From contig JAVCCG010000130.1 in the NCBI GenBank assembly GCA_030765605.1, positions 1 through 13,515 of the forward strand: a stretch of DNA of 13,515 nucleotides. The letters run 5' to 3'. A program made the position numbers and the translations under genes. Positions 1-13,301 of this stretch are shown here, piece by piece (the first letter of the stretch is position 1; every line of letters begins with the position of its first letter). The stretch comes from Candidatus Alcyoniella australis. GTDB lineage: Bacteria > Lernaellota > Lernaellaia > JAVCCG01 > Alcyoniellaceae. The notes under the pieces were generated by a model that did not search any database, was not told the DNA's origin, and saw only the letters and a list, made by a program, of their open reading frames with translations.

Positions 1-1295
1 TCGGGGTAGCGTTCGTAGGCCTGGGACACGCGCTTCTGAAAGAGCGGGATCTTGCCGCCCGCGGCCCGGGCCTCGCGCGCCTCCAGTATCTCGCGTTTGC
101 TCCGTCGATCCCCGACTTCGCGCTTTCGCCGGCGGCGCTGCTGTTGTCGACGGTCGACGACCACCGCCTCGATTGTGATCAGGAAGTACAACAGCTGCAG
201 CGACTCGGTGAGCGTCAGGCTGCTCTCGCTGAGGATCCTGCCGATGTTCTGCTGCCGGCCCACGGAGCGGTAGTACTTCATCTCCGAGGGCTTGAGCACG
301 ACCTGTCCGGTCTCGACCAGGTTGGTCTTGGTCTTGACCGGCCGTACGTTGGTGAAGTCGCGGAAGTACTCCTCGAGCCGCTGCAGCGACATGTAGCGCC
401 GGATGCCCTCGAGCACCAGTTTGGGCGCGTTCTGGCTCAGGCAGAGGTTTTTATCGAGCTCGAAGTCGCCGGCGGTGAAGTGGTACTCGCCGTCGTCCCA
501 GGCGAAGATTTTGAGGATCTTTTCCTTGATCTGGTCGATCAACGCCGTGTACAGCTGGTGCGGCGTGAGCACGCCCATCTCGATCAACACCGCGCCGTGC
601 TGTTTGCCGCTGCTGATCATCTGCTGCAGGCTGGCGTTGTACTGCTCGGTGGTGATCATCTCACGCGAGAGCAGGTAGCGGCCCAGGGACTCGTTGGAGA
701 GGTTGCTGGTGACGAATACCGGGTTGCCGCGGCTGATGTAGACGATCTTGGAGACCGACTCGCTGATCATTCGCAGCGCGCCGTTGCGCTCGTATTTGTA
801 CAACGTGTAGAGCAACTTGCCCAGCGGCACCTCGGCCAGGGTGCCCTCGCGTCCGATGCGGCGGCTGATCCATTGCCGGTCGTCGCCCACCGCCACGTCG
901 ATCGGCATCTCCGGCTCGCCCAGGGCGAACAGCTCGCGCAACAGTCGCTCGAGCTCGGTAACGTCCACGGGCTTGGCCAGGAACGAGTCGACGCCCAGCC
1001 GCTTGAGGTGTTCGTACTGGTCCTGGAACGCGCGGTAGGCGCTGCTCATCAGTACGGCCTTGAACAAGCCGCCGCCGGGCTTCTCGCGCAGGCGCTGGAT
1101 GACCTTGACGCCGGGCATGCCCACCAGCAGCGCATCGATCAATACCAGGTCGGGGTTGGTCTCGTCGAAGCGCTCCAGCGCCTGCTGGCCGGTGGTGACC
1201 CAAACTGTCTGGATTTCGCGTCCGGCGAAGAACTCGGAGAGCGCCTCGTACTGCGAATGGTCGTGCTCGCCGATCAGCACGCGCTTGAGGTTCAT
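1..1295 (-). CDS. Response regulator with receiver and DUF4388 (PATAN) domains, 3' end cut by window edge
   Basis: About 431 codons are present and the reading frame is still open at the window edge. Residues 1-118 form a CheY-like receiver: acidic residues E10/D12, phosphoacceptor D54 in VLIDALL, S84/S85 at the switch position and K108 in LAKPVD. Residues about 150-275 match DUF4388/PATAN (GTLAEVPLGKLLYTLYKYE, then GRYLLSREMITTEQY). Residues about 310-380 look like a further helical module. Residues 382-414 are very basic (RRQQQRRRRKR), probably a flexible linker. DUF4388 proteins are signalling adaptors common in deltaproteobacterial lineages, and some carry a C-terminal DnaJ domain; whether one follows here cannot be seen. 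The ATG at 1295 has AAGGGG 8 bases upstream. No histidine kinase is adjacent. The gene lies 126 bases after the deoxyhypusine-synthase-like gene and may have its own promoter. The domain calls are firm; the role (gliding, development or other signalling) is unknown. Confidence 0.9.
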   Translation of the reverse strand, partial: MNLKRVLIGEHDHSQYEALSEFFAGREIQTVWVTTGQQALERFDETNPDLVLIDALLVGMPGVKVIQRLREKPGGGLFKAVLMSSAYRAFQDQYEHLKRLGVDSFLAKPVDVTELERLLRELFALGEPEMPIDVAVGDDRQWISRRIGREGTLAEVPLGKLLYTLYKYERNGALRMISESVSKIVYISRGNPVFVTSNLSNESLGRYLLSREMITTEQYNASLQQMISSGKQHGAVLIEMGVLTPHQLYTALIDQIKEKILKIFAWDDGEYHFTAGDFELDKNLCLSQNAPKLVLEGIRRYMSLQRLEEYFRDFTNVRPVKTKTNLVETGQVVLKPSEMKYYRSVGRQQNIGRILSESSLTLTESLQLLYFLITIEAVVVDRRQQQRRRRKREVGDRRSKREILEAREARAAGGKIPLFQKRVSQAYERYP

Positions 1296-1421: not shown

Positions 1422-2363
1422 TCATCTGGCGTCGGAAACGATCTCGACCAACGTCTGGTGCAGCATTGGAATAAGAATCTCGTGGTGGCCGGTGATCGCG
1501 ATCCCCTGTCCGCCCTGGGCCACCGGCCGCGTGATCACGTTCTGGGTCGGGCGGTAGTGCTGGATGAAGTCGAGGTTGGCCGTGGTAAAGTTCGTGGGCG
1601 CACCCTCGATGTTGCGCGCCACACTCAGCGCCTTGAGGAACACCTCGGGCAGCAGCACCGCGCTGCCCAGGTTGAGGTACACGCCGCCGTCGAGCTGGGC
1701 CACGATTTGGGTCAGGGCGTCGAAGTCGCGCATGCAGCCCGTGGCGCACAGCTCGGCCGGGAACTGCGGATGCATGTGTAGGATGTCGGTGCCCAGGGCG
1801 ATCACGCCGTAGGCCTGCAGGCCCAGGCGCTCGATCGCGGCCAGCAGGCTGATCTTCAGATACGGCGGCACCAGATCGAGAATGCCGCGACCCACTGCCC
1901 CGCCCAGACCGCGTCCGGCCTCGATCCCTTGGCGGATGAAGCGGTTGAGATACTCGGCGGTCTCGGTCGCCATGCCGAACTCGCCGCGCCCCAGGCTTTG
2001 GGCCACGTCCTCGCTGGTTTTGCCGGCAAAGGCCAGCTCGAAGTCGTGAATCATCACCGAGCCGTTGAATACAATCGCGCTGATCAGCCCGCGCTGGGCC
2101 AGGTCGATCAGGTAGGGCGAGCAGCCGGTCTTGATTACGTGGCCGCCCAGTCCGACGATCACCGGCCGGTCCGCCTGCCGCGCCTCGACGATCGCCCGCG
2201 CCAGTTCGGACATTCCACGAGCGCCAAAGCTCCGCGGCATCCCGCAGAGCCAATCTTTGAACGAGACGCCCGCCGATCGCGGCCTTCCCAGGTCGTCGCG
2301 GTCGACTAGGCTATGGCGGCTGCTCAAAGGATAGGTTTTAATTTTGTCGCGTGGGCCGCTCAC
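1422..2363 (-). CDS. Uncharacterised deoxyhypusine-synthase-like protein coupled to gmhA
   Basis: A 313-residue cytosolic protein with no signal peptide or membrane segment. It resembles a family of about 300 residues that I recall, without an established name, from Geobacter-type heptose gene neighbourhoods; I associate it with the deoxyhypusine synthase fold. Signature stretches are VIVGLGGHVIKTG (68-80), NGSVMIHDFELA (100-111), GTDILHMHP (191-199), YLNLGSAVLLPEVFLKAL (229-246) and ITGHHEI (290-296). The glycine-rich first motif and the conserved His/Asp residues suggest a nucleotide- or NAD-binding Rossmann-like enzyme, but the substrate is unknown. The GTG start at 2363 is chosen because it overlaps the gmhA stop (GTGA) with GGAG 5 bases upstream, and because family-like sequence (KIKTYPLSSRHSLV) begins right after it. 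A longer in-frame ATG at 2522 lies wholly inside gmhA and is implausible. Co-translation with gmhA suggests a role in heptose or envelope metabolism. The gene is certain; the function is not. Confidence 0.85.
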   Translation of the reverse strand: MSGPRDKIKTYPLSSRHSLVDRDDLGRPRSAGVSFKDWLCGMPRSFGARGMSELARAIVEARQADRPVIVGLGGHVIKTGCSPYLIDLAQRGLISAIVFNGSVMIHDFELAFAGKTSEDVAQSLGRGEFGMATETAEYLNRFIRQGIEAGRGLGGAVGRGILDLVPPYLKISLLAAIERLGLQAYGVIALGTDILHMHPQFPAELCATGCMRDFDALTQIVAQLDGGVYLNLGSAVLLPEVFLKALSVARNIEGAPTNFTTANLDFIQHYRPTQNVITRPVAQGGQGIAITGHHEILIPMLHQTLVEIVSDAR

Positions 2364-2947
2364 TTGTGCTCCGCGTCGCGCGGGAACAGCAGCCGCTCGG
2401 AGATGTCGCACAGCAGGTGGCCGATGGCGATGTGCACTTCCTGGATTAAGGCGGTCCGCCCGCCGGGAACCTCGATCGCCACGTCGCACAATGCGCTCAG
2501 CGGTGAGCCCGCGGGCCCGCACAGGCCGATCACCGACAGCCCCAGCTCGCGCGCGACCTCGCAGGCCAGCAGCACGTTGGGGCTCGAGCCCGATGTGCTG
2601 ATCGCGATCAGCACGTCGCCGCGGCGGCCCAGCGCCTCGATCTGACGCGAGAAGATCCGCTCGTAGCCCATGTCGTTGCTCACCGAGGTCATGGTGCTCG
2701 CGTCGATGGTCAGGGCGATGGCGGACATGCCGGGCCGCTCCAGCTCAAAGCGGTTGACCCACTCGGCGGCCAGGTGCTGGGCGTCGGCCGCGCTGCCGCC
2801 GTTGCCGCAGATCAGGACCTTGTTTCCCGCGGCCAGCGCGTCGGCGATCATCTGCGAGGCGCGCTGGATGAGCTCGGCCTGGGCCTCCAGGGTTCGCATG
2901 CGCAGCTGCGCGCCCTCGCGGGCGTGGGTCAAAATCAGTTCTTTCAC
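2360..2947 (-). CDS. gmhA: D-sedoheptulose-7-phosphate isomerase (SIS domain)
   Basis: A 195-residue single-domain SIS protein, close to the usual GmhA length of about 192. GmhA converts sedoheptulose 7-phosphate to D-glycero-D-manno-heptose 7-phosphate in the cytoplasm, the first step towards ADP-heptose for the LPS inner core. The phosphosugar-binding motifs are CGNGGSAADAQHLAAEW (48-64) and STSGSSPN (117-124). The metal/catalytic set of E. coli GmhA (H61, E65, Q172, H180) corresponds to H58, E62, Q169 and H177, each shifted by exactly three. The GTG start at 2947 has GGAGG 10 bases upstream and gives a family-like N terminus (VKELILTHAREG). An in-frame ATG at 3055 would add 36 unrelated residues and run through the promoter. 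It is the first gene of the minus-strand unit and overlaps the next by 4 bases. The other heptose genes (hldE, gmhB, hldD) are not in this window. Confidence 0.93.
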   Translation of the reverse strand: MKELILTHAREGAQLRMRTLEAQAELIQRASQMIADALAAGNKVLICGNGGSAADAQHLAAEWVNRFELERPGMSAIALTIDASTMTSVSNDMGYERIFSRQIEALGRRGDVLIAISTSGSSPNVLLACEVARELGLSVIGLCGPAGSPLSALCDVAIEVPGGRTALIQEVHIAIGHLLCDISERLLFPRDAEHK

Positions 2948-3175: not shown

Positions 3176-4417
3176 ATGGCCTATAAGACGAATCCCAGAG
3201 TGCTCTCGATGATTCTCGCCGGCGGCGAGGGCAGCCGCTTGCAGCCGCTGACCAAGACCCGGGCCAAACCCGCGGTCCCCTTTGCCGGACGCTACCGGAT
3301 CATCGACTTCGTGCTGAGCAACTTCATCAACTCGCGCTTCTATCGAATCAAGGTGCTGACCCAGTACAAGTCCAACTCGCTGAACAAGCACATCAGCCGC
3401 GGCTGGCACCTAACCCACGTGGGCGGCAACTTCATCGAGCCGGTCCCGGCGCAGCAGCGCGTGGGCAAAGATTGGTACCGCGGCAGCGCCGACGCGATCT
3501 ATCAAAACATCGAGATCATCACCGACGACAATCCCGAACACGTGCTGATTTTCGGCGCGGACCACATCTACAAGATGAACGTGCGCCAGATGCTCGCCGA
3601 GCACATCGAGCGCAAGGCCGAATGCACTATCGCGGCGATCCCCATGCCCTGCGACCAAGCGTACAAGTTCGGCGTGCTCGAAATCGACGAGGACTGGCGG
3701 CTGATCGGTTTCCAGGAGAAGCCGAAAAAACCCAAGACGATTCCCGGCCGTCCCGACCTGTGCCTGATCTCGATGGGCAACTACATCTTCACCGTCGACA
3801 CGATCATCGAGGAGGTCCAGCGCGACCACGGCGCTGAGTCGCAGCACGACTTCGGCCGCAACATCATCCCCGGGATGTACAAACAGCGCTACGTGCACGT
3901 CTACGACTTCTCGCGCAACTCGGTCCCGGGCATGTCCCAGAACGAGCGCGGATATTGGCGCGACGTGGGCGACATCGACACCTATTGGGAGACGCACATG
4001 GACCTGATCAGCGTCTCGCCGCGGCTGGACATCCACAACGTGCAGTGGCCGATCCACACCTACTACTTCCCCTATCCGCCGGCCAAGTTCATCTTCGACG
4101 ACGAGCAGGGCAAGCGCTTGGGTGTGGCCACCAACTCGCTGGTCTCCGAAGGCGCAATTATTTCCGGCGGACACATCGACCGCTCGATCCTCAGCCCGAT
4201 GGTGCGCATCAACTCCTACAGCTACGTCAGCGAATCGATTCTGTTCGAGGACGTCAACATCGGCCGCCACGCGATGATCAAGCGCGCGATAATCGATAAA
4301 CACGTGGACGTCCCGCCGGGCGCCAAGATCGGCTACGACCTAGAGGAAGACAAACGGCGCTTTCACGTCACCGCCTCGGGGATCGTCGTGGTTCCCAAGC
4401 GCCATCAATTCAAGTAG
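3176..4417 (+). CDS. glgC: Glucose-1-phosphate adenylyltransferase (ADP-glucose pyrophosphorylase)
   Basis: Makes ADP-glucose and pyrophosphate from ATP and glucose 1-phosphate, the committed step of bacterial glycogen synthesis, in the cytoplasm. At 413 residues it has the normal length. The nucleotidyltransferase domain (about 8-280) carries MILAGGEGSRLQPLT (12-26), KPAVPFAGRYRIIDF (31-45), WYRGSADAIYQN (100-111), FGADHIYKM (126-134) and the EKP motif. Y101, D129 and K182 align with E. coli Y114, D142 and K195 at a constant offset. The C-terminal part (about 290-413) is a left-handed beta-helix region. The position of E. coli K39, which binds the activator fructose 1,6-bisphosphate, appears to be Thr28, so allostery may differ. 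The ATG has only a weak GGACGG site 10 bases upstream. It is the first gene of a five-gene plus-strand operon, 5 bases from the next gene. Confidence 0.96.
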   Translation: MAYKTNPRVLSMILAGGEGSRLQPLTKTRAKPAVPFAGRYRIIDFVLSNFINSRFYRIKVLTQYKSNSLNKHISRGWHLTHVGGNFIEPVPAQQRVGKDWYRGSADAIYQNIEIITDDNPEHVLIFGADHIYKMNVRQMLAEHIERKAECTIAAIPMPCDQAYKFGVLEIDEDWRLIGFQEKPKKPKTIPGRPDLCLISMGNYIFTVDTIIEEVQRDHGAESQHDFGRNIIPGMYKQRYVHVYDFSRNSVPGMSQNERGYWRDVGDIDTYWETHMDLISVSPRLDIHNVQWPIHTYYFPYPPAKFIFDDEQGKRLGVATNSLVSEGAIISGGHIDRSILSPMVRINSYSYVSESILFEDVNIGRHAMIKRAIIDKHVDVPPGAKIGYDLEEDKRRFHVTASGIVVVPKRHQFK

Positions 4418-4422
4418 GGCCC

Positions 4423-6594
4423 GTGCAACGGCTCTCGGTCCTTTTCCTGTGGCACATGCACCAGCCGGACTACTCCCACGGTCTGGACGGCGACTACCGC
4501 CTGCCCTGGGTGCGGCTGCACGCCTGCAAGGGCTACTACGAGATGATCGCCGCCCTGCGCCCCTTCGAGCGCATCGGCGCAACCTTCAACTTCTCGCCGT
4601 GCCTGATCGCGCAGCTCGAGGACTACGCGCAACGCGGCCTGGAAACGCCCGAGACCTGCTTGCAGCTCTCGCTCAAATCGCCGGGCGATCTGACCCACGA
4701 CGAGGTCGACCGGCTGCTCTCGGACTTCTTCAACGCCAACTGGGACACGATGGTCCGGCCCGAGCCGGGCTACGCGCGGCTGCTCGAGAAACGCGGATTG
4801 CGCTCGTCGCCGCAGTACCTGGCCCAGGCCCGGCGGTCGTTCAGTAAACAAGACCTGCTGGATTTGCAGGTCTGGTTCAACCTCGCCTGGTGCGGCCCGG
4901 CAGCCTGCCGCGACCTGCCGCAGCTCGCGCAGCTTAAGCGCAAGGGGATGCAGTTCAGCGCACAGGACAAGCGCGAGGTGCTCGTGGCGCAGATCGAGCT
5001 GGTGCGCCGGGTGCTGGCCGAATATCGCGAGGCCGCGCAACAAGGCCGGATCGAGATCAGCGCCTCGCCGTTTTACCACCCGATTTTACCGCTGCTGATC
5101 GACAGCCGGTTCGCGCATCGCGCATCGCCCGAACGCGACCTGCCCTTCCGCTTCCGCGCGCCCCGGGACGCCCGCGACCAAATCGAGCGCGGACTGGATC
5201 GCATGCAGCGCTGGCTGGGAACCCGCCCCAGCGGGGTCTGGCCCAGCGAGGGCTCGATCTGCCCCGAGCTGATCGGGATGCTGGCCGAGGCCGGGGTCGA
5301 ATGGATCGCAAGCGACGAGGGCGTGCTGGCGCGCTCCCTTGATCGGCACGCGGAGCGCGAGGACTGGCTCTACCGGCCCTACACCGTGCGCCGCAACGGC
5401 AGCCAGGTGCGGGCGCTGTTCCGCGACCACCAGCTCTCCGATCTGATCGGCTTCACCTACTCCAAGAACGACCCCCGCGAATCGGCCGAAGATTTCGTCG
5501 GGCGGCTGCAAAGCATCGGCGAGCGGACCGCCGGGCGCGGCGACGAGCCGTGCGTGGCCGTGGTGCTCGACGGCGAGAACGCCTGGGAATATTTCCCCGG
5601 CGGCGGCGAACGCTTTCTCGAGGCGCTGTACTCCAAGCTCGAGTCCCAGCCCAACCTGCGCGTCGAGCGCATCGGCGAATATTTGAGCCGCGTCCGCGAG
5701 CCCGCAACCATCGAGCGGCTGCACTCGGGCAGCTGGATCAACGCCGATTACAACGTCTGGATCGGCCACCCCGAGGAGAACCAGGCCTGGAACCTGCTGG
5801 GCCAGACGCGGCAGATGCTGGTCAGCAGGCAGCGCCGCGGACCGGCGTTGGAGCAGTCTAAAATCGATCGCGCCTGGGAGCTGATCTATCAGGCCGAGGG
5901 CAGCGATTGGTTCTGGTGGTTCGGCGACGATTTCACCAACCCGCAGAAGGACGTGTTCGACGGCCTGTTCCGCAGCAAGCTCGCCGCGGTCTTCCGCGAG
6001 CTGGACGAGCCGTTGCCCGACGAATTGCAGCGGCCGCTGAGCCGGGACGAGCACCAGGCCGATCCGCTGGAGCCGCCGCTGGACTTCATCACGCCGCGCA
6101 TCGATGGCCGCGTAACCCACTTCTACGAGTGGGAGAACGCCGGAGTACTCAAATTCGGCCAGTCGCGCGGCCAGATGCACCTGGGCCGCTCGCTGCTGGC
6201 CAACGCGTTCTACGGCTTCGACCTGCAAAACTTCTACCTGCGGCTGGACCCCTGCGCCGAGCTGTTGTCCGAGCCCGAGGTCATGGCCTCGCTGTTGATC
6301 GAGGGGCCCGCGACGTTCGAGGCGCGCTTCGCCCTGCGCTTCGACGGCTCGCTGAGCAGCTACACCCTGAGCCGCAGCGAGGGCGGCGAGCAACAGATCG
6401 AGTCGATCGCCGGACACGACGTAATCGAGCTGGCGCTGCCGTTTGCCGCGATCAACGCCGAGGTCGACCAGCGCTATCGGCTGCAGCTGCGGCTCTACAA
6501 GTCCGGCATTGAGCTCGATCGCCTGCCGCGCTACGACTCGCTGGAGCTACAGATCCCGGACAAGTCTTTCCAAAATCTGATGTGGTCCTGTTGA
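4423..6594 (+). CDS. GH57 glycoside hydrolase, alpha-amylase/amylopullulanase type
   Basis: A 723-residue retaining glycoside hydrolase of family 57. The five GH57 signature regions are visible: HMHQPD (11-16), SPFYHPILPLL (215-225), GVWPSEGSICPEL (271-283) with E276 as nucleophile, VVLDGENAWEYFPGGG (380-395) with D383 as general acid/base, and GSWINADYNVWIG near 440. Residues beyond about 535 form a separate beta-rich C-terminal region (ITPRIDGR, then GFDLQNFYLRLDP) that looks like a carbohydrate-binding or DOMON/CBM9-like sandwich. There is no signal peptide, so it should act on cytoplasmic glycogen or maltodextrin. The GTG start at 4423 is the only start that keeps the N-terminal strand (LSVLFLWHMHQ); it lies 5 bases after glgC, with AGGG close upstream, suggesting coupling. 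Catalysis is well supported. Whether it cuts alpha-1,4, alpha-1,6 or both bonds cannot be read from sequence. Confidence 0.88.
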   Translation: MQRLSVLFLWHMHQPDYSHGLDGDYRLPWVRLHACKGYYEMIAALRPFERIGATFNFSPCLIAQLEDYAQRGLETPETCLQLSLKSPGDLTHDEVDRLLSDFFNANWDTMVRPEPGYARLLEKRGLRSSPQYLAQARRSFSKQDLLDLQVWFNLAWCGPAACRDLPQLAQLKRKGMQFSAQDKREVLVAQIELVRRVLAEYREAAQQGRIEISASPFYHPILPLLIDSRFAHRASPERDLPFRFRAPRDARDQIERGLDRMQRWLGTRPSGVWPSEGSICPELIGMLAEAGVEWIASDEGVLARSLDRHAEREDWLYRPYTVRRNGSQVRALFRDHQLSDLIGFTYSKNDPRESAEDFVGRLQSIGERTAGRGDEPCVAVVLDGENAWEYFPGGGERFLEALYSKLESQPNLRVERIGEYLSRVREPATIERLHSGSWINADYNVWIGHPEENQAWNLLGQTRQMLVSRQRRGPALEQSKIDRAWELIYQAEGSDWFWWFGDDFTNPQKDVFDGLFRSKLAAVFRELDEPLPDELQRPLSRDEHQADPLEPPLDFITPRIDGRVTHFYEWENAGVLKFGQSRGQMHLGRSLLANAFYGFDLQNFYLRLDPCAELLSEPEVMASLLIEGPATFEARFALRFDGSLSSYTLSRSEGGEQQIESIAGHDVIELALPFAAINAEVDQRYRLQLRLYKSGIELDRLPRYDSLELQIPDKSFQNLMWSC

Positions 6595-6595
6595 A

Positions 6596-8743
6596 ATGAG
6601 CAATCTCAAAGCGTTCCTCTCCCTGACAATCCACAACCACCAGCCGGTGGGCAACTTCGACTGGGTATTCCAGGGCGCGTTCGAGCGCTGTTACGAGCCG
6701 TTTATCGCAATGCTGGCCGAGCACCCCTCGATCAAGGTCGGCCTGCACTACTCCGGCCCGCTGCTGGACTGGTTCGAGCAAAACCAGCCGCAGTTTATCG
6801 ACAAGCTCGCCGTGCTGGTAAATCGCGGACAAGTCGAAATGCTCGGCGGCGGCTACTACGAGCCGATCCTGTCGGTGCTGCCCGAGGCCGACGCCCTGGG
6901 CCAGTTGGCGATGCTCGCGGACTGGATCGAACGCCGATTGGGCCAAGCGCCGCGCGGAATCTGGCTCACCGAGCGCATCTGGGAGCCGGGCCTGCCCGAC
7001 CTGCTCTCGCGCGCCAACGTGAAGTACACCCTGGCCGACGACAACCACTTCCGCTACGCCGGGCTGAGCGAGGACCAACTCGCGGGCTACTACCTCACCG
7101 AGAACCGCGGTAAGCGGATGGCGGTCTTCCCCATCGACCGCACCCTGCGCTACACGATCCCGTTCAAGCAGCCCGAGCAGACCATCGAACATTTGCGTCA
7201 ACGCAGCCGACTGTGGCCCGGCGTGCTGCTCAACTACGGCGACGACGGCGAGAAGTTCGGCCTGTGGCCCGGGACCCACGAGTGGGTCTACGGCGAGCGC
7301 TGGCTCGAGCGCTTCTTCACGGCGCTGGAGGAGTCCGCGGACTGGCTGGAGACGATCACGCCCGGCGCGGCGCTGGAGCGCTTTGAGCGTGTGGGCCGGG
7401 TCTACCTGCCCACGGCGAGCTACCACGAGATGATGCAGTGGGCGCTGCCGGCCCAAGCTGCGGCCGACATGGCCCAACTGGTCGACGAGCTCAAGGAGCG
7501 CGGTGAGTACGAGCGGATGCTGCCCTTTATCCGCGGTGGATTCTGGAACAACTTCTTCGTCAAGTACCCCGAGTCCAACCGCATGCACAAACGGATGCTC
7601 CACGTCAGCCGCATGCTCGATAGCGCTGGCCAGGCGGCGCCCGAGGCGGCGCGGCACGCGCTGTACCGCAGCCAGTGCAACTGCGCCTACTGGCACGGGC
7701 TGTTCGGCGGGCTGTACCTGAACTATCTGCGCCACGCGGTCTACGAGAACATCCTCGCGGCCCAGCGGCTGCTCGACGAGGCAACGGGCGATCTGCAAGG
7801 CCGGGTCGAGGTAGAGCAAGAGGACTACGACTGCTGCGGCATCGACGAGCTGCTGGTGCGCAGCACCAAGCTGTGCGCCACGGTCCAGCCCGGCTACGGC
7901 GGCGGACTGAGCGAGATCAGTTTTCGGCCGCGCGACTTCTGCCTGACCGACGTGCTGGCCCGGCGCTACGAGGCCTACCACAGCCGACTGAGCAACGCGC
8001 AGAGCCCGGGTGCCGACCAGGGCGATCCGCAGAGCATCCACGATCGGGTTCAGGTCAAGGAGCAGGGTCTGGAGAACCTGCTGTACTACGACTGGCACGA
8101 GCGCTTGTGCGTGCTCGACCATCTGCTGGGCGAGGGCTACGACCTCGAGGCGCTGGAATCGGCGAGCTATCGCGAGTGGGGCGACTTCGTCAATCAACCC
8201 TACGAGGTAGCCGCGGTCGTCGCTCCGCAGCACGGAGCGGCGCAGATCCGCCTGGTGCGCGACGGCGGGCTGTGGATCGGCGGCGACTGCCATTGCTTCA
8301 CAATCCAAAAGAGCTACCGCTTCTTTCCCGACTCGGCCGACGTCGAGATCGGCCTGACCCTGATCAACCGCTCAACGCAACACCAGTCGATCAACTACGG
8401 CTGCGAGTTCAACCTTACGCTGCTGTGCGGCGACCAGCCGGACCGGCGCTGCGAAATCAACGGCGCGGCGGACGAACAATCGTCGATGGGCGGCCGCGGC
8501 GTGAGCCCCGAGGTGCGGCGCGTGGTGTTGATCGACGAGGCGTCGGGCTTCCGTGTTAAGCTGGAGGTCGACCGTCCCTGTGAGCTGTTCCGCTGGCCGA
8601 TTGAAACCGTCAGCCAGAGCGACGGCGGATTCGAGCGCACCTACCAGGGTTCGTGCCTGCTGTTCGTACACAGTTTTGAGCTCGAGCCCGACCAGCAGGC
8701 CCAGATCAAATTCAAGCTTTGCATCGAGGAGGTCCCGAAGTGA
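6596..8743 (+). CDS. GH57 4-alpha-glucanotransferase/alpha-amylase with DUF1925 and DUF1926
   Basis: A 715-residue GH57 enzyme of the Thermococcus litoralis 4-alpha-glucanotransferase/Dictyoglomus AmyA type (about 660-690 residues). The catalytic barrel (1 to about 285) contains TIHNHQPVGNF (11-21), GGGYYEPILSVLP (84-96), GIWLTERIWEPGL (121-133) with E126, and NYGDDGEKFGLWPG (213-226) with D217. These match E123 and D214 of the T. litoralis enzyme. DUF1925 spans about 305-395 (FIRGGFWNNFFVKYPESN, then CAYWHGLFGGLYLNYLRH), and DUF1926 about 410-710. Such enzymes move alpha-1,4 glucan segments between chains and can hydrolyse. No signal peptide. The ATG lies one base after the previous stop with no good ribosome site of its own, so translation is probably coupled. 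In this operon it would remodel chains for the branching enzyme or recycle maltodextrins. Transferase versus hydrolase activity is not decidable here. Confidence 0.92.
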   Translation: MSNLKAFLSLTIHNHQPVGNFDWVFQGAFERCYEPFIAMLAEHPSIKVGLHYSGPLLDWFEQNQPQFIDKLAVLVNRGQVEMLGGGYYEPILSVLPEADALGQLAMLADWIERRLGQAPRGIWLTERIWEPGLPDLLSRANVKYTLADDNHFRYAGLSEDQLAGYYLTENRGKRMAVFPIDRTLRYTIPFKQPEQTIEHLRQRSRLWPGVLLNYGDDGEKFGLWPGTHEWVYGERWLERFFTALEESADWLETITPGAALERFERVGRVYLPTASYHEMMQWALPAQAAADMAQLVDELKERGEYERMLPFIRGGFWNNFFVKYPESNRMHKRMLHVSRMLDSAGQAAPEAARHALYRSQCNCAYWHGLFGGLYLNYLRHAVYENILAAQRLLDEATGDLQGRVEVEQEDYDCCGIDELLVRSTKLCATVQPGYGGGLSEISFRPRDFCLTDVLARRYEAYHSRLSNAQSPGADQGDPQSIHDRVQVKEQGLENLLYYDWHERLCVLDHLLGEGYDLEALESASYREWGDFVNQPYEVAAVVAPQHGAAQIRLVRDGGLWIGGDCHCFTIQKSYRFFPDSADVEIGLTLINRSTQHQSINYGCEFNLTLLCGDQPDRRCEINGAADEQSSMGGRGVSPEVRRVVLIDEASGFRVKLEVDRPCELFRWPIETVSQSDGGFERTYQGSCLLFVHSFELEPDQQAQIKFKLCIEEVPK
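8726..8732 (+). promoter_or_regulatory. Strong ribosome binding site fixing the branching-enzyme start
   Basis: GAGGAGG lies 7 bases before the GTG at 8740, inside the 3' end of the upstream gene. The GTG overlaps that gene's stop as GTGA. This decides against the in-frame ATG at 8719, which precedes the ribosome site and would add MHRGGPE, unrelated to the family N terminus. Confidence 0.85.
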
Positions 8744-10467
8744 GCACTATCGGAAGCTTTACGTTCGTACTGCACAGCCATTTGCCCTACGTGCTCTCTC
8801 ACGGTCGTTGGCCCCACGGCACCGACTGGCTCAACGAGGCCGCGGCCGAGACCTACCTGCCGCTGCTGGACGTGTTCGGCCGTCTGGCGGCCGAGGGGCT
8901 GCCGATCAAGCTGACCCTGGGTATCACGCCGATCCTTGCCGAGCAGCTAAGTTCGCTGGACTTCGCCCGCGAGTTCAACGGCTACCTCAAGCAGCGCATC
9001 GAGGGCTGCGAGACCGACATCGCACACTTCACGCGCACCAAGCAGACGCAGATGGGGCGGCTGGCCGGGATGTGGCTCGACTTCTACCGCCGCACGCACC
9101 TGCGCTTTACCGAGCATTATGACGAGGACATCGTCGGCGCGTTCGCCAAGCTGCAAGAGCGCGGCCTGATCGAGATCATCACCAGCGCGGCGACCCACGG
9201 CTATTTGCCGCTGCTGGGCTACGACGAGGCGGTGCGCGCCCAGGTGCGCGCCGGGGTCGAGACCTACAAACGCCACTTCGGCTGCGCGCCGCGCGGAATC
9301 TGGCTGCCCGAGTGCGCCTACCGACCGGCCTACCCCTGGAAGCCGCCGGTGGCCTCGCAGGCCCGGCTGCCCATGGAGCGCGAGCGACTGGGAGTCGAAG
9401 AGCTGCTGGCCGAGAACGGCATCGAGTACTTCATTACCGACAGCCACATGCTCGTCGGCGGCAAGGCGATCGGCGCCTACCTCGACCGCTTCGACGCCCT
9501 GCGCAATCTGTGGTCGCAGATGGACCGCTCGACCAAGATCGAGGGCAAGCCGCAGAGCCCCTACGGCGTGTACGCCGTGGCCAGCCGCGAAGGGCAGCGC
9601 GACGTTTGCTCCGTGCTGGTGCGCGATCCGCGCACCGGGGTTCAGGTCTGGTCCGGCGAGCACGGCTACCCCGGCGACGGCCAATACCTCGAATTCCACA
9701 AGAAGCACTTCCCCAGCGGCAACCGCTACTGGCGGGTGACCGGGTCCAAGGCCGATCTGGCCGACAAGCAGATCTACGACCCCGAGCAGGTCGAGGCGCG
9801 GCTGGATGAGAACGCCGGACATTTCGTCGAGCTGGTGCACCAGGTGTTGCGCGAGCATCATCAGGCCACGGGCGAGCCCGGACTGCTGTGCGCGCCGTTC
9901 GACACCGAGCTGTTCGGCCACTGGTGGTTCGAGGGTCCGCGCTGGATCGAGAAGGTGCTGCGCGGTCTGGCGCGCTCCTCCGAGGTCGAGCTGACCAGCG
10001 GTTCGGAGTATCTCGACGGCCATCCGCCGACCACGGCCGTGCGCCTGCCCGAGGGCTCGTGGGGCGAAGGCGGGTTCCACTACATCTGGCTCAACGAGTG
10101 GACCGACTGGACCTGGAAGCACATCTACTCCGCCGAGTCGCGGATGATCGAGCTGGCGCGCGACTTCGCGCGCAGCGACGATGCCGACCTGCGGCGCGTG
10201 CTGCGGCAGGCGGCGCGCGAGCTGCTGCTGCTGGAGTCCAGCGACTGGCAGTTCCTGATCAGCACCTGGAGCGCCCGCGACTACGCCGAGACGCGGCTTG
10301 TGGAGCACAACGCGGACTTCACCCGCCTGGCCGCGCTGGCGCAACGCCTGGGCGAGGGCGGAGCGCTGGACGAGGGCGACTGGTTGTTCGTCGGCGAATG
10401 CGAGACGCGCGACGACGTTTTCAGAGACGTCGATCCACAATGGTGGGTCGGCGGGAAAGCGGAGTAG
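8740..10467 (+). CDS. GH57 1,4-alpha-glucan branching enzyme (DUF1957 type)
   Basis: A 575-residue branching enzyme of the Thermococcus TK1436/Thermus thermophilus GH57 type, which cuts an alpha-1,4 chain and rejoins it through an alpha-1,6 bond. Motifs: VLHSHLPYV (10-18), ITSAATHGYLPLL (147-159), GIWLPECAYRP (186-196) with nucleophile E191, and APFDTELFGHWWFEG (385-399) with acid/base D388. The C-terminal helical region carries GGFHYIWLNEWTDWTW, typical of DUF1957. The published proteins use E183/D354 (TK1436) and E184/D353 (Thermus). The GTG start at 8740 overlaps the previous stop by 4 bases and has an excellent ribosome site. A second enzyme of the same superfamily directly upstream shares only the fold motifs and not DUF1925/1926, so the two are different subfamilies and not a recent tandem duplication. 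It presumably replaces the GH13 enzyme GlgB in this pathway. Confidence 0.94.
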   Translation: MSTIGSFTFVLHSHLPYVLSHGRWPHGTDWLNEAAAETYLPLLDVFGRLAAEGLPIKLTLGITPILAEQLSSLDFAREFNGYLKQRIEGCETDIAHFTRTKQTQMGRLAGMWLDFYRRTHLRFTEHYDEDIVGAFAKLQERGLIEIITSAATHGYLPLLGYDEAVRAQVRAGVETYKRHFGCAPRGIWLPECAYRPAYPWKPPVASQARLPMERERLGVEELLAENGIEYFITDSHMLVGGKAIGAYLDRFDALRNLWSQMDRSTKIEGKPQSPYGVYAVASREGQRDVCSVLVRDPRTGVQVWSGEHGYPGDGQYLEFHKKHFPSGNRYWRVTGSKADLADKQIYDPEQVEARLDENAGHFVELVHQVLREHHQATGEPGLLCAPFDTELFGHWWFEGPRWIEKVLRGLARSSEVELTSGSEYLDGHPPTTAVRLPEGSWGEGGFHYIWLNEWTDWTWKHIYSAESRMIELARDFARSDDADLRRVLRQAARELLLLESSDWQFLISTWSARDYAETRLVEHNADFTRLAALAQRLGEGGALDEGDWLFVGECETRDDVFRDVDPQWWVGGKAE

Positions 10468-10474
10468 ACGACCG

Positions 10475-11476
10475 ATGCCGCAACTTCGTAAAGACCCGAT
10501 CATCGGCCGCTGGGTGATTATCTCCACCGAACGCGCGCGCCGTCCCAACGTTTTTTCCAAGGAGCCCGTGGAAAAAATCGGTCACAAGAACTGCCCGTTC
10601 TGCCCGGGCAACGAGTCGCACACCCCATCCGAGATTTTGGCCGACCGCTCCAACGGCTCGCAGCCCGACGGCCCGGGCTGGACCCTGCGCGTGGTGCCCA
10701 ATAAGTTCCCGGCGCTGCGGGTCGAGGGGCAGCTGGACCGCGAGGGGGTCGGACTCTACGACCAGGAGAGCGGCGTGGGCGCCCACGAGGTGATCATCGA
10801 GACGCCGGACCACGATTGCGCGTTCTCGGAATATTCCGACAGCCAGATCGAGGACATCCTGTGGGCCTACCGTGAACGGATGATCGACCTAAAGCGCGAC
10901 ACGCGGATGAAGTACGCGATGATTTTCAAGAACCACGGCGCCAGCGCCGGCGCCAGCCTGGAACATCCGCACAGCCAGCTGATCGCCATGCCGATCGTGC
11001 CCAAGAACGTGCTCGAGGAGCTCAAGGGCAGCCGCGAGTACTATGGCTACAAGGAGCGCTGCGTGTTCTGCGACATCGTGCGCCAGGAGACGCGCGACCC
11101 CGAACGGCTGATCGCCGAGAACACCGACTTTGTGGCCATCGCGCCGTTCGCCAGCCGCTTCCCGTTCGAAATCTGGATTTTGCCCAAGCACCACGACTCG
11201 TGCTTCGAGGACGCGCAGAAGCACGAGTTCGCGTTCCTGGCCAAGATCTTCAGCGAGGTGATGAAGCGCCTCGACCGCGCCTTGGACAGTCCGGCGTTCA
11301 ACTTCTATCTGCACACCTCGCCCTTTGGCGAGCAGCACAACGAGTACTACCACTGGCACTTTGAGATCATGCCGCGGCTGAGCAAGCTCGCCGGGTTCGA
11401 GCGCGGCACCGGGTTCTACATCAACCCCACTCCGCCGGAACAGGCCGCCAAGTACCTGCGCCGGATCGAGCTGTGA
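10475..11476 (+). CDS. galT: GalT-family hexose-1-phosphate nucleotidyltransferase
   Basis: A 333-residue HIT-superfamily protein of the GalT class, which exchanges nucleotidyl groups between sugar 1-phosphates through a covalent histidine intermediate. C40 and C43 (NCPFCPGNE), H113 (TPDHD) and H164 form the structural zinc site. H166 in LEHPHSQL is the nucleophile, at the same number as in E. coli GalT, where the motif reads HPHGQ. The second half has an extra CxxC (CVFC, 196-199) and the metal-site histidines in EYYHWHFEIMP (H293, H295). The ATG at 10475 lies 7 bases after the branching-enzyme stop with GGAG 10 bases upstream; an earlier in-frame start at 10298 lies inside that gene and is not used. 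It is the last gene of the glucan operon. Lacking galE or galK nearby, it could instead be an ADP-glucose phosphorylase, like Arabidopsis At5g18200. Family certain, substrate uncertain. Confidence 0.88.
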   Translation: MPQLRKDPIIGRWVIISTERARRPNVFSKEPVEKIGHKNCPFCPGNESHTPSEILADRSNGSQPDGPGWTLRVVPNKFPALRVEGQLDREGVGLYDQESGVGAHEVIIETPDHDCAFSEYSDSQIEDILWAYRERMIDLKRDTRMKYAMIFKNHGASAGASLEHPHSQLIAMPIVPKNVLEELKGSREYYGYKERCVFCDIVRQETRDPERLIAENTDFVAIAPFASRFPFEIWILPKHHDSCFEDAQKHEFAFLAKIFSEVMKRLDRALDSPAFNFYLHTSPFGEQHNEYYHWHFEIMPRLSKLAGFERGTGFYINPTPPEQAAKYLRRIEL

Positions 11477-11624: not shown

Positions 11625-11666
11625 CGGCAAGAATTAGAGAGTATACGTTCAATGGAGGGCTCGATA

Positions 11667-13301
11667 ATGCGGCGATATCTAACAATCTGTGCCGTGCTGA
11701 TCATATTCGTCAGCGGCCTGGTGAGCGTCGAGGCGCTGGCCGCTAAACCCGACCAGGTCTCGAATACGATCACCAACCTCAAGCAGATCACCCGCGACAA
11801 GGGCGTGGAGGTCTATCCCGATCCCGCGCCGGACGAGAAGTTTATCGTCTACGCCAAGTGGGTGGTGGTCAACGTCAGCGGGTTCTACGACATCTTCCAG
11901 CTCGACCTGTCCAACGGCCGCGAGATCAACCTCACGCCCGACAGCCCCAAGCACGACGAAAATCCGGTCTACAACGAAGACGGCTCCAAGGTGCTGTTCG
12001 ACTCCTACCGCCAGAAGGAGCGCAGCGTCTGGATCGCCGAAGCCGGCGGCGGCGGCGGCATTCAGCGCATCAGCCGCGGCAGCTCGGCCGACTTCGACGG
12101 CGACATCAGCCCCGACGGCCAAAAGGTCGTGTTCTGCGCTTACAAGGGCAAGCGCGACATCCGCGAGGTCAAGGGCGGCGAGCGCCACGACATCTTCCGC
12201 GGCGCGGAAATGCCCTCGATCATGCTGGCCAACATCGACGGCAGCAACCAACGCGAGATCGCCAAGGGCATCAACCCGACCTTCAGCCCCGACAGCAAAA
12301 CCATCGCCTTTGCCGGCAACATCAGCGGCACAATGGAAGTCTATACGCTGAACATCGACGGCACCGGCCTGACCCAGATTACCAAGGGCAACAGAAAAGA
12401 GCCGAGCCTCGAGCCGACCTTCTCGCCCTGCGGCGAATATTTGGCCTTCTCCTCGCGCCGCGACAAGAACTGGGACATCTACATGGTCGAGATCAAGACC
12501 AACCGCCTGACCCAGCTCACGGTGCACGACGAAGTCGACGGCGGACCCTCCTGGGGCTCCGAGGGCAACATCTACTTCCACTCCAAGCGCTCCGGATCGT
12601 GGGACGTATGGAGCATGAAGCCCATCGGCTACGACGCGGACATGGATAAAGACAACATCCGCGGCGCCGCCGACAAGTGCCCCAAGCAGGCCGAGGATTT
12701 CGACAACTGGCAGGACGAAGACGGCTGCCCCGATCCTGACAACGACGGCGACGGATTCCTCGACGCCGACGATAAGTGCCCGGATCAGGCCGAAGACATG
12801 GACGGCCAGCTCGATGAGGACGGCTGCCCCGACCTGGACAACGACAACGACGGCATTCCCGACGACCAAGACGGCGCACCCACCGAGCCCGAGACCCTCA
12901 ACGGCTTCCGCGACGACGACGGCATTCCCGACCGTCCGCCGCTGGACGACAAGTTCATCGTCGCCGGCCTGTACTTCAAGAGCGGCCGCTACGAGGTGAC
13001 CCCGGAGAGCTTCGCTGTGCTCGACGACCTGTCGCGCAAGATCGAGGCCGACACCATGGCCAAGGTAGAGGTCCGCGCGTTCACCGACAGCCGCGGCAAA
13101 GATCAGCGCAACCTCGAGCTCAGCCAGCGCCGCGCCGACGCGGTCAAAGCCTATCTGATGAGCAAAGGGATTGATCCCAACCGCCTGATCGCCGTGGGCT
13201 ACGGCGAGCAGTTCCCCGTGGCCGACAACCGCACGGCGGAAGGCCGCGCCAAGAACCGCCGCGTCGAAATCGTCCGCCTCTGGAGCCCGCCGAACAAATA
13301 A
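11667..13301 (+). CDS. Exported TolB-like propeller, TSP3-repeat and OmpA-domain fusion protein
   Basis: A 544-residue envelope protein. Residues 1-26 form a Sec signal peptide (basic start, hydrophobic core LTICAVLIIFVSGLV, cleavage near VEALA/AKPD) without a lipobox cysteine. Residues about 35-320 form PD40/TolB-like beta-propeller blades, for example GDISPDGQKVVF, PTFSPDSKTIAFAG and PTFSPCGEYLAFSSR. Residues 324-422 hold three 33-residue thrombospondin type-3-like calcium-binding repeats. Residues about 430-540 form an OmpA/Pal peptidoglycan-binding domain, with D474 (FTDSRG) and R489 (LSQRRAD) as the expected diaminopimelate ligands and GRAKNRRVEI at its end. The protein likely sits in the periplasm, tied to peptidoglycan, with the propeller as a docking surface, combining features of TolB and Pal. 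The ATG at 11667 has GGAGGG 7 bases upstream; an ATG at 11652 overlaps that site and is rejected. It has its own promoter and terminator, so it is monocistronic. Partner proteins are unknown. Confidence 0.92.
   Translation: MRRYLTICAVLIIFVSGLVSVEALAAKPDQVSNTITNLKQITRDKGVEVYPDPAPDEKFIVYAKWVVVNVSGFYDIFQLDLSNGREINLTPDSPKHDENPVYNEDGSKVLFDSYRQKERSVWIAEAGGGGGIQRISRGSSADFDGDISPDGQKVVFCAYKGKRDIREVKGGERHDIFRGAEMPSIMLANIDGSNQREIAKGINPTFSPDSKTIAFAGNISGTMEVYTLNIDGTGLTQITKGNRKEPSLEPTFSPCGEYLAFSSRRDKNWDIYMVEIKTNRLTQLTVHDEVDGGPSWGSEGNIYFHSKRSGSWDVWSMKPIGYDADMDKDNIRGAADKCPKQAEDFDNWQDEDGCPDPDNDGDGFLDADDKCPDQAEDMDGQLDEDGCPDLDNDNDGIPDDQDGAPTEPETLNGFRDDDGIPDRPPLDDKFIVAGLYFKSGRYEVTPESFAVLDDLSRKIEADTMAKVEVRAFTDSRGKDQRNLELSQRRADAVKAYLMSKGIDPNRLIAVGYGEQFPVADNRTAEGRAKNRRVEIVRLWSPPNK
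12636..12932 (+). repeat. Three 33-residue TSP3-like calcium-binding repeats
   Basis: The units are residues 324-356, 357-389 and 390-422 of the OmpA-domain protein, a 99-base period. Repeats 1 and 2 share DKCP and DEDGCPD with cysteines exactly 33 apart (C338/C371 and C354/C387). Repeat 3 keeps the Asp-rich DNDNDGIPDD and DDDGIPD but lacks both cysteines. The Asp spacing fits calcium coordination, and the Cys pairs could form one disulphide per repeat. They probably act as a stiff spacer between the propeller and the OmpA domain. Confidence 0.85.

Follow-up and report, generated by a model that had tools for sequence, protein, structure and literature searches.

The window, meaning the whole 13,515-nucleotide stretch of DNA analysed here, corresponds to contig C130 in a genome of 4.3 Mb that is 98% complete. 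On its minus strand, gmhA (positions 2360 to 2947, 195 amino acids, GTG start), which encodes D-sedoheptulose 7-phosphate isomerase, is followed by a gene for a protein of 313 amino acids (1422 to 2363, minus strand, GTG start) that is single-copy in this genome. The TGA of gmhA and the GTG of the second gene share four bases (GTGA), and a GGAG ribosome-binding site (2369 to 2372, minus strand) lies inside the gmhA coding region, five bases upstream of that GTG. The GTG start, the four-base overlap with the gmhA stop and the separate GGAG site had been noted in the original prediction, and all are confirmed in the sequence. The range 1422 to 2947 that it gave for a deoxyhypusine synthase (DHS)-like gene holds for the pair but not for a single gene, as it spans gmhA too. 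The gmhA product matched SIS_2 in the Pfam scan (112 bits, 2.5e-32) and stayed under the cut-off of the best gmhA models (TIGR00441, 196 vs 209 bits; PRK13936, 214 bits). Downstream on the same strand, Pfam identified a response regulator with DUF4388 (3 to 1295, minus strand); it has a separate start after a gap of ~125 bases, so it is not necessarily part of the same operon.

The translated 313-residue protein is a member of NCBIfam family NF052581, 'GSU2086 family protein' (360.1 bits vs a cut-off of 250, model positions 5–300 of 301). The gene was thus not without a name, as had been supposed; the accompanying statement that no function could be named for it stands, since NF052581 is a model without an assigned function. 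Matches to PF01916 (deoxyhypusine synthase, 22.3 bits) and PF21570 (ArgZ-like C-terminal Rossmann domain, 22.6 bits) were sub-threshold in the Pfam scan (cut-off 27 for each). In the NCBIfam scan the protein scored 13 bits vs a cut-off of 304 with TIGR00321 (DHS) and 15 bits vs 411 with TIGR00300 (ornithine cyclodeaminase), the DHS and homospermidine equivalogs gave 11–16 bits vs cut-offs of 300–500, and there was no match to TIGR02197 (HldD).

An AlphaFold2 model of the window protein built from 42 homologues had a mean pLDDT of 92.9 and a pTM of 0.90. Foldseek matched this model to DHS at E ~1e-8, and VIA-align placed it on DHS over nearly the whole chain (Z 20–21, rmsd 3.6–4.7, 261–296 residues). 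The ornithine-cyclodeaminase domain of AgrE/ArgZ aligned over 212–222 residues with Z 21–22 and rmsd 2.9–3.3, and the Methanococcus protein 3c2q, which is related to AgrE/ArgZ, was among the best structural matches. Judged from this confident model, the window protein has the fold common to DHS and the AgrE/ArgZ ornithine-cyclodeaminase domain. Because of these structural matches, together with the weak sequence matches to both DHS and ArgZ, the label DHS-like is right as a description of the fold; as a family assignment it fails, the proposed profile and structure searches against deoxyhypusine and homospermidine synthases having returned a shared fold and missed family cut-offs. The RP and FPLL-like C-terminal elements align with those of DHS, but identity to DHS is ~11–13% and the gene context is that of heptose synthesis. 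AgrE/ArgZ and TIGR00300 (PF21570) are the closest relatives by profile, in the region of the HD-x-E motif, and by Z score; however, only residues 44–312 of the window protein align with them, the matches are below the cut-offs, the pathway context is another one, and the window protein has no arginine dihydrolase domain.

To our knowledge, bacteria are not expected to hypusinate, and a role other than hypusination had been predicted for this gene. Lys329 of human DHS aligned to the conserved Pro280 of the RP motif in the GSU2086 family, and across 103 homologues no Lys was conserved from residue 255 to 300, which supports that view. The correspondence was drawn from a MAFFT alignment and the order of secondary structures, with the human segment checked against PDB chains; hhalign of the family against the C-terminus of human DHS alone gave no usable alignment. 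In the alignment with the 42 homologues, residues G73, H75, K78, G80, N100, G101, H106, D107, E109, T116, E118, H187, G191, D193, H196, H198, D213, F214, N231, GSAV (233–236), E240, K244, N263, D265, QHYRP (268–272), R279 and GHHE (292–295) were among those invariant or nearly so. The motifs singled out earlier (GLGGHVIKTG, GTDILHMHP, NLGSAVLLPE and GHHEI) are present and fall in stretches conserved across these homologues. Such a set, rich in His, Arg and Asp, would be expected of an enzyme handling a phosphorylated or nucleotide-linked sugar. Since DHS and AgrE are NAD enzymes, the predicted fold suggests that NAD is likely the cofactor of the window protein.

The association with heptose genes extends well beyond the window. 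Among 106 loci, gmhA was found within five genes of the GSU2086-family gene in 43 and directly upstream in 39, hldE was within five genes in 15, and one or the other was present in 56. A lack of consistent linkage to heptose genes, named beforehand as the outcome that would speak against the predicted role, was therefore not what we saw. Where the gene lies directly downstream of gmhA (n = 39), the two overlapped as in the window (–4) in eight cases, and about half overlapped or abutted, start codons being assigned mechanically. The same-strand neighbour at +1, the position of the response regulator in the window, clustered in five loci. In the genome sample, the GSU2086 family was near gmhA or hldE in 34/89 genomes compared to 8/73 for HldD itself.

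We searched 60 and then 251 genomes with profiles of the GSU2086 family, HldD (TIGR02197), the HldE adenylyltransferase (ATase) and GmhA; the HldE kinase domain was covered in the 60 genomes only and GmhB in the 251 only. Carriers of the GSU2086 family almost always had the pathway (hldE ATase in 86/89 and gmhA in 83/89 of the 251-genome set). Of the 166 genomes with both gmhA and the hldE ATase, 78 had the GSU2086 family only, 65 had HldD only, 2 had both and 21 had neither (Fisher p = 7e-25, a value inflated by relatedness). When one genome at least 90% complete was kept per taxonomic family, the counts were 44, 36, 2 and 11, respectively (p = 1e-13); as the genomes share ancestry, both p-values overstate independence. 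Both kinds of genome, carriers and those with HldD, occur across many taxonomic families, and f14 is a family with one of each, the carrier G017 and the HldD genome G165. A separate set of 50 carriers, which by record title covers at least six phyla (Acidobacteria, Methylomirabilota, Deltaproteobacteria, Nitrospirota, Planctomycetes and Coatesbacteria), included a single genome with HldD. The genome of the window follows the same pattern: gmhA, the hldE kinase, the ATase and a GmhB match are present, and no HldD was found in this 98% complete assembly (best TIGR02197 score 125 bits vs a cut-off of 275). The 21 pathway genomes with neither protein may make do with D,D-heptose or have solved this step in a third way.

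Two other accounts of this distribution were considered and rejected. A divergent HldD hidden among the SDRs would be expected to raise the best TIGR02197 score, which was at most 158 bits in HldD-less carriers vs up to 166 in genomes with neither protein (60-genome sample), and neighbouring SDRs classify nearest to GalE. Replacement of GmhB was discarded because the family showed no significant association with it: GmhB matches were found in 59/80 pathway carriers and 57/67 HldD genomes, with neither association significant, and the kinase of a long-form cluster described below is already fused to a HAD phosphatase.

The family member in Geobacter sulfurreducens, GSU2086, lies between hldE (GSU2085) and gmhA (GSU2087) (PMC5585712), the same gmhA/hldE context as that considered here. 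Tn-Seq of this organism on electrodes gave values of –3.1 for hldE, –3.2 for GSU2086 and –3.7 for gmhA (PMC5585712). The transposon used reads through, with little polarity according to the authors (PMC5585712), and the GSU2086 defect is therefore probably due to GSU2086 itself.

Genomes in which the family and HldD coexist were few. In both of the double genomes (G029 and G085), the GSU2086-family gene lies in a second cluster with its own nucleotidyltransferase/kinase genes. G029 has canonical gmhA, hldE and HldD elsewhere in the genome; in its second cluster (contig C13; L016:1456-3048, also L116) the GSU2086-family domain and an HldE-like nucleotidyltransferase, a cytidylyltransferase-fold domain, form an in-frame fusion, and the fusion gene is followed by a second nucleotidyltransferase/kinase gene and a radical SAM gene. 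In G085, an HldD genome, a long-form GSU2086 protein of 377 amino acids (contig C19; L117:3341-9083) is encoded beside a GmhA-like isomerase, an HldE-like nucleotidyltransferase gene and a radical SAM gene, with what by the look of the sequences is probably a transketolase split into two halves; this is possibly a second heptose-type pathway. The long form in G002 (contig C26; L118:6349-9507) adjoins an SIS isomerase and a fusion of a PfkB kinase to a HAD phosphatase, which combines HldE-kinase-like and GmhB-like steps in one protein. Apparent long reading frames at several other loci were dismissed as high-GC extensions, leaving L016 as the only clear fusion. In a third exception, the Vicinamibacteria genome of locus L078, HldD is present together with a GSU2086-family gene next to gmhA; contig composition matched (r = 0.98), and a binning error was rejected as the source of this HldD. 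The family thus occurs with the isomerase, kinase, phosphatase and nucleotidyltransferase, to the last of which it can be fused, and excludes only the epimerase.

Because the carriers are almost all without HldD and the gene lies beside ADP-heptose genes, we believe that the GSU2086 family probably does the job of HldD with an unrelated protein. The original idea that the gene serves heptose metabolism in a step linked to NAD or a sugar is supported by adjacency to gmhA and hldE, co-occurrence with hldE and the Geobacter Tn-Seq phenotype, with NAD use suggested by the fold; the exclusion with HldD, which that prediction did not contain, sharpens the link to a specific step. We infer the cofactor, substrate, reaction and product from what was observed: the family membership, the fold, the link to gmhA and hldE, the reliance on hldE, the near-absence of HldD from carriers and the mutant phenotype shared with both genes. 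We consider it reasonably probable that the GSU2086 family is a non-homologous, NAD-using replacement of HldD that acts as the C6 epimerase of ADP-heptose. GmhA, the HldE kinase, GmhB and the HldE adenylyltransferase would make ADP-D-glycero-D-manno-heptose as usual. The GSU2086-family protein would then use bound NAD+ to oxidise the heptose at C6 and put the hydride back on the opposite face, yielding ADP-L-glycero-D-manno-heptose, following the internal redox logic of HldD on a protein of another fold. In the reactions of DHS and AgrE, the hydride that NAD+ removes from the substrate is returned at a later point, and the fold therefore suits the proposed reaction. HldD/RfaD (TIGR02197) is an extended SDR, of an unrelated family and fold, and adjoins gmhA or hldE less often than the GSU2086-family gene; the two would share the same reaction and place in the ADP-heptose pathway, as their complementary distribution suggests, a comparison of distribution and not of reaction. 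With slightly better than even confidence, we would extend this to the broader statement that a large fraction of Gram-negative bacteria, about half of the sampled pathway genomes, has in place of HldD a second, evolutionarily unrelated ADP-heptose 6-epimerase of the DHS fold, and that its long variant serves further, radical-SAM-linked heptose-type pathways.

The main rival to HldD replacement is that carriers make D,D-heptose only and the enzyme carries out some other NAD-dependent change on ADP-heptose or a derived sugar, such as another epimerisation, an oxidation or a deoxygenation. Presence and absence fit this alternative branch as well as they fit replacement, and the 21 pathway genomes with neither protein are in keeping with it. 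In the open literature we found no characterised carrier LPS and no composition record showing L,D-heptose in one; their heptose might thus be of the D,D form, for which no epimerase would be required. However, the family is as frequent as HldD among the pathway genomes and stands in the same context, whereas one would expect a special modification to be rarer and less exclusive across phyla than this. We therefore regard this reading as unlikely, though it deserves to be kept in mind.

Somewhat less probable still is action before activation, in which the protein would epimerise or rearrange sedoheptulose 7-phosphate or a heptose phosphate and make the HldD step unnecessary. It would account for gmhA being the most frequent neighbour, so often directly upstream and overlapping, and the conserved residues include His, Arg and Lys, which might serve in phosphate binding, but the G029 fusion to an HldE-like nucleotidyltransferase places the family near the activation step too.

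A GalE-like SDR could also be the real substitute for HldD, leaving the GSU2086 family another role in the pathway. In G001–G006 and G037 (e.g. L122:2007-5003), GmhB, a kinase (~260–300 bits), an ATase and a GalE-like SDR lie in a row, most of these genomes having the canonical kinase as well; the SDR thus adjoins GmhB, kinase or ATase genes of a second hldE cluster, and the arrangement is found in the window's own class. The three SDRs scanned scored best with GalE, at 150–167 bits, and reached 111–118 with TIGR02197, compared to 445 for a true HldD. Among carriers from other groups, the second clusters inspected in G018, G042, G044 and G047 lacked this arrangement. As the SDR is not HldD-like by score and is missing from the second clusters examined in other groups, we think this explanation improbable.

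Two further readings can be set aside as very improbable. A true deoxyhypusine or homospermidine synthase that lies near gmhA incidentally, which the fold and the weak PF01916 match (22 bits) would allow, was rejected because the catalytic Lys is replaced, the equivalog scores (11–16 bits vs 300–500) are far under the cut-offs and the link to heptose genes is systematic. A non-catalytic partner or regulator of GmhA or HldE would agree with the gene adjacency and the nucleotidyltransferase fusion, but the motifs that contain the conserved residues align with the cofactor and active-site parts of homologous folds, and the exclusion of HldD would be left unexplained.

Prior knowledge covers the name of the family, its fold group and the Tn-Seq phenotype; what is probably new is the enzyme for one step of a known pathway, NF052581 having no assigned function where we propose HldD replacement. 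In the open-access literature we found no paper linking the GSU2086 family to HldD, none describing an alternative ADP-heptose epimerase, and nothing that combined HldD with Geobacter or ADP-heptose with DHS. ADP-heptose serves as the precursor for the inner core of LPS, and its sensing by ALPK1 triggers innate immunity. If HldD has indeed been replaced, the apparent lack of the final pathway step in Geobacter, in a large part of the Acidobacteriota and in several further phyla is a misreading. A gap in the pathway would then be closed, an NCBIfam family of unassigned role but with a fitness phenotype would gain a function, and a fold hitherto associated with polyamine and ornithine chemistry would turn out to carry out a sugar-nucleotide reaction as well.

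Other neighbours recurred around the family. uvrA was directly upstream, or one gene further, in 32 of the 106 loci (e.g. L077:6553-9360), mostly in Acidobacteria, and in six of these gmhA was present too. A membrane protein resembling CPBP-type intramembrane proteases followed the GSU2086-family gene in 17 loci (e.g. L098:10988-11818). In the window itself, a divergent alpha-glucan gene set occupies positions 3176 to 11476 on the plus strand and encodes an NTP-transferase with a hexapeptide domain (glgC-like), a GalT-like protein and three GH57 enzymes, one of them 4-alpha-glucanotransferase-like and one with a branching-enzyme C-terminus. It is followed on the plus strand by a gene (11661 to 13301) for a protein with a PD40 beta-propeller and an OmpA domain, with Asp-rich calcium-type repeats between the two.
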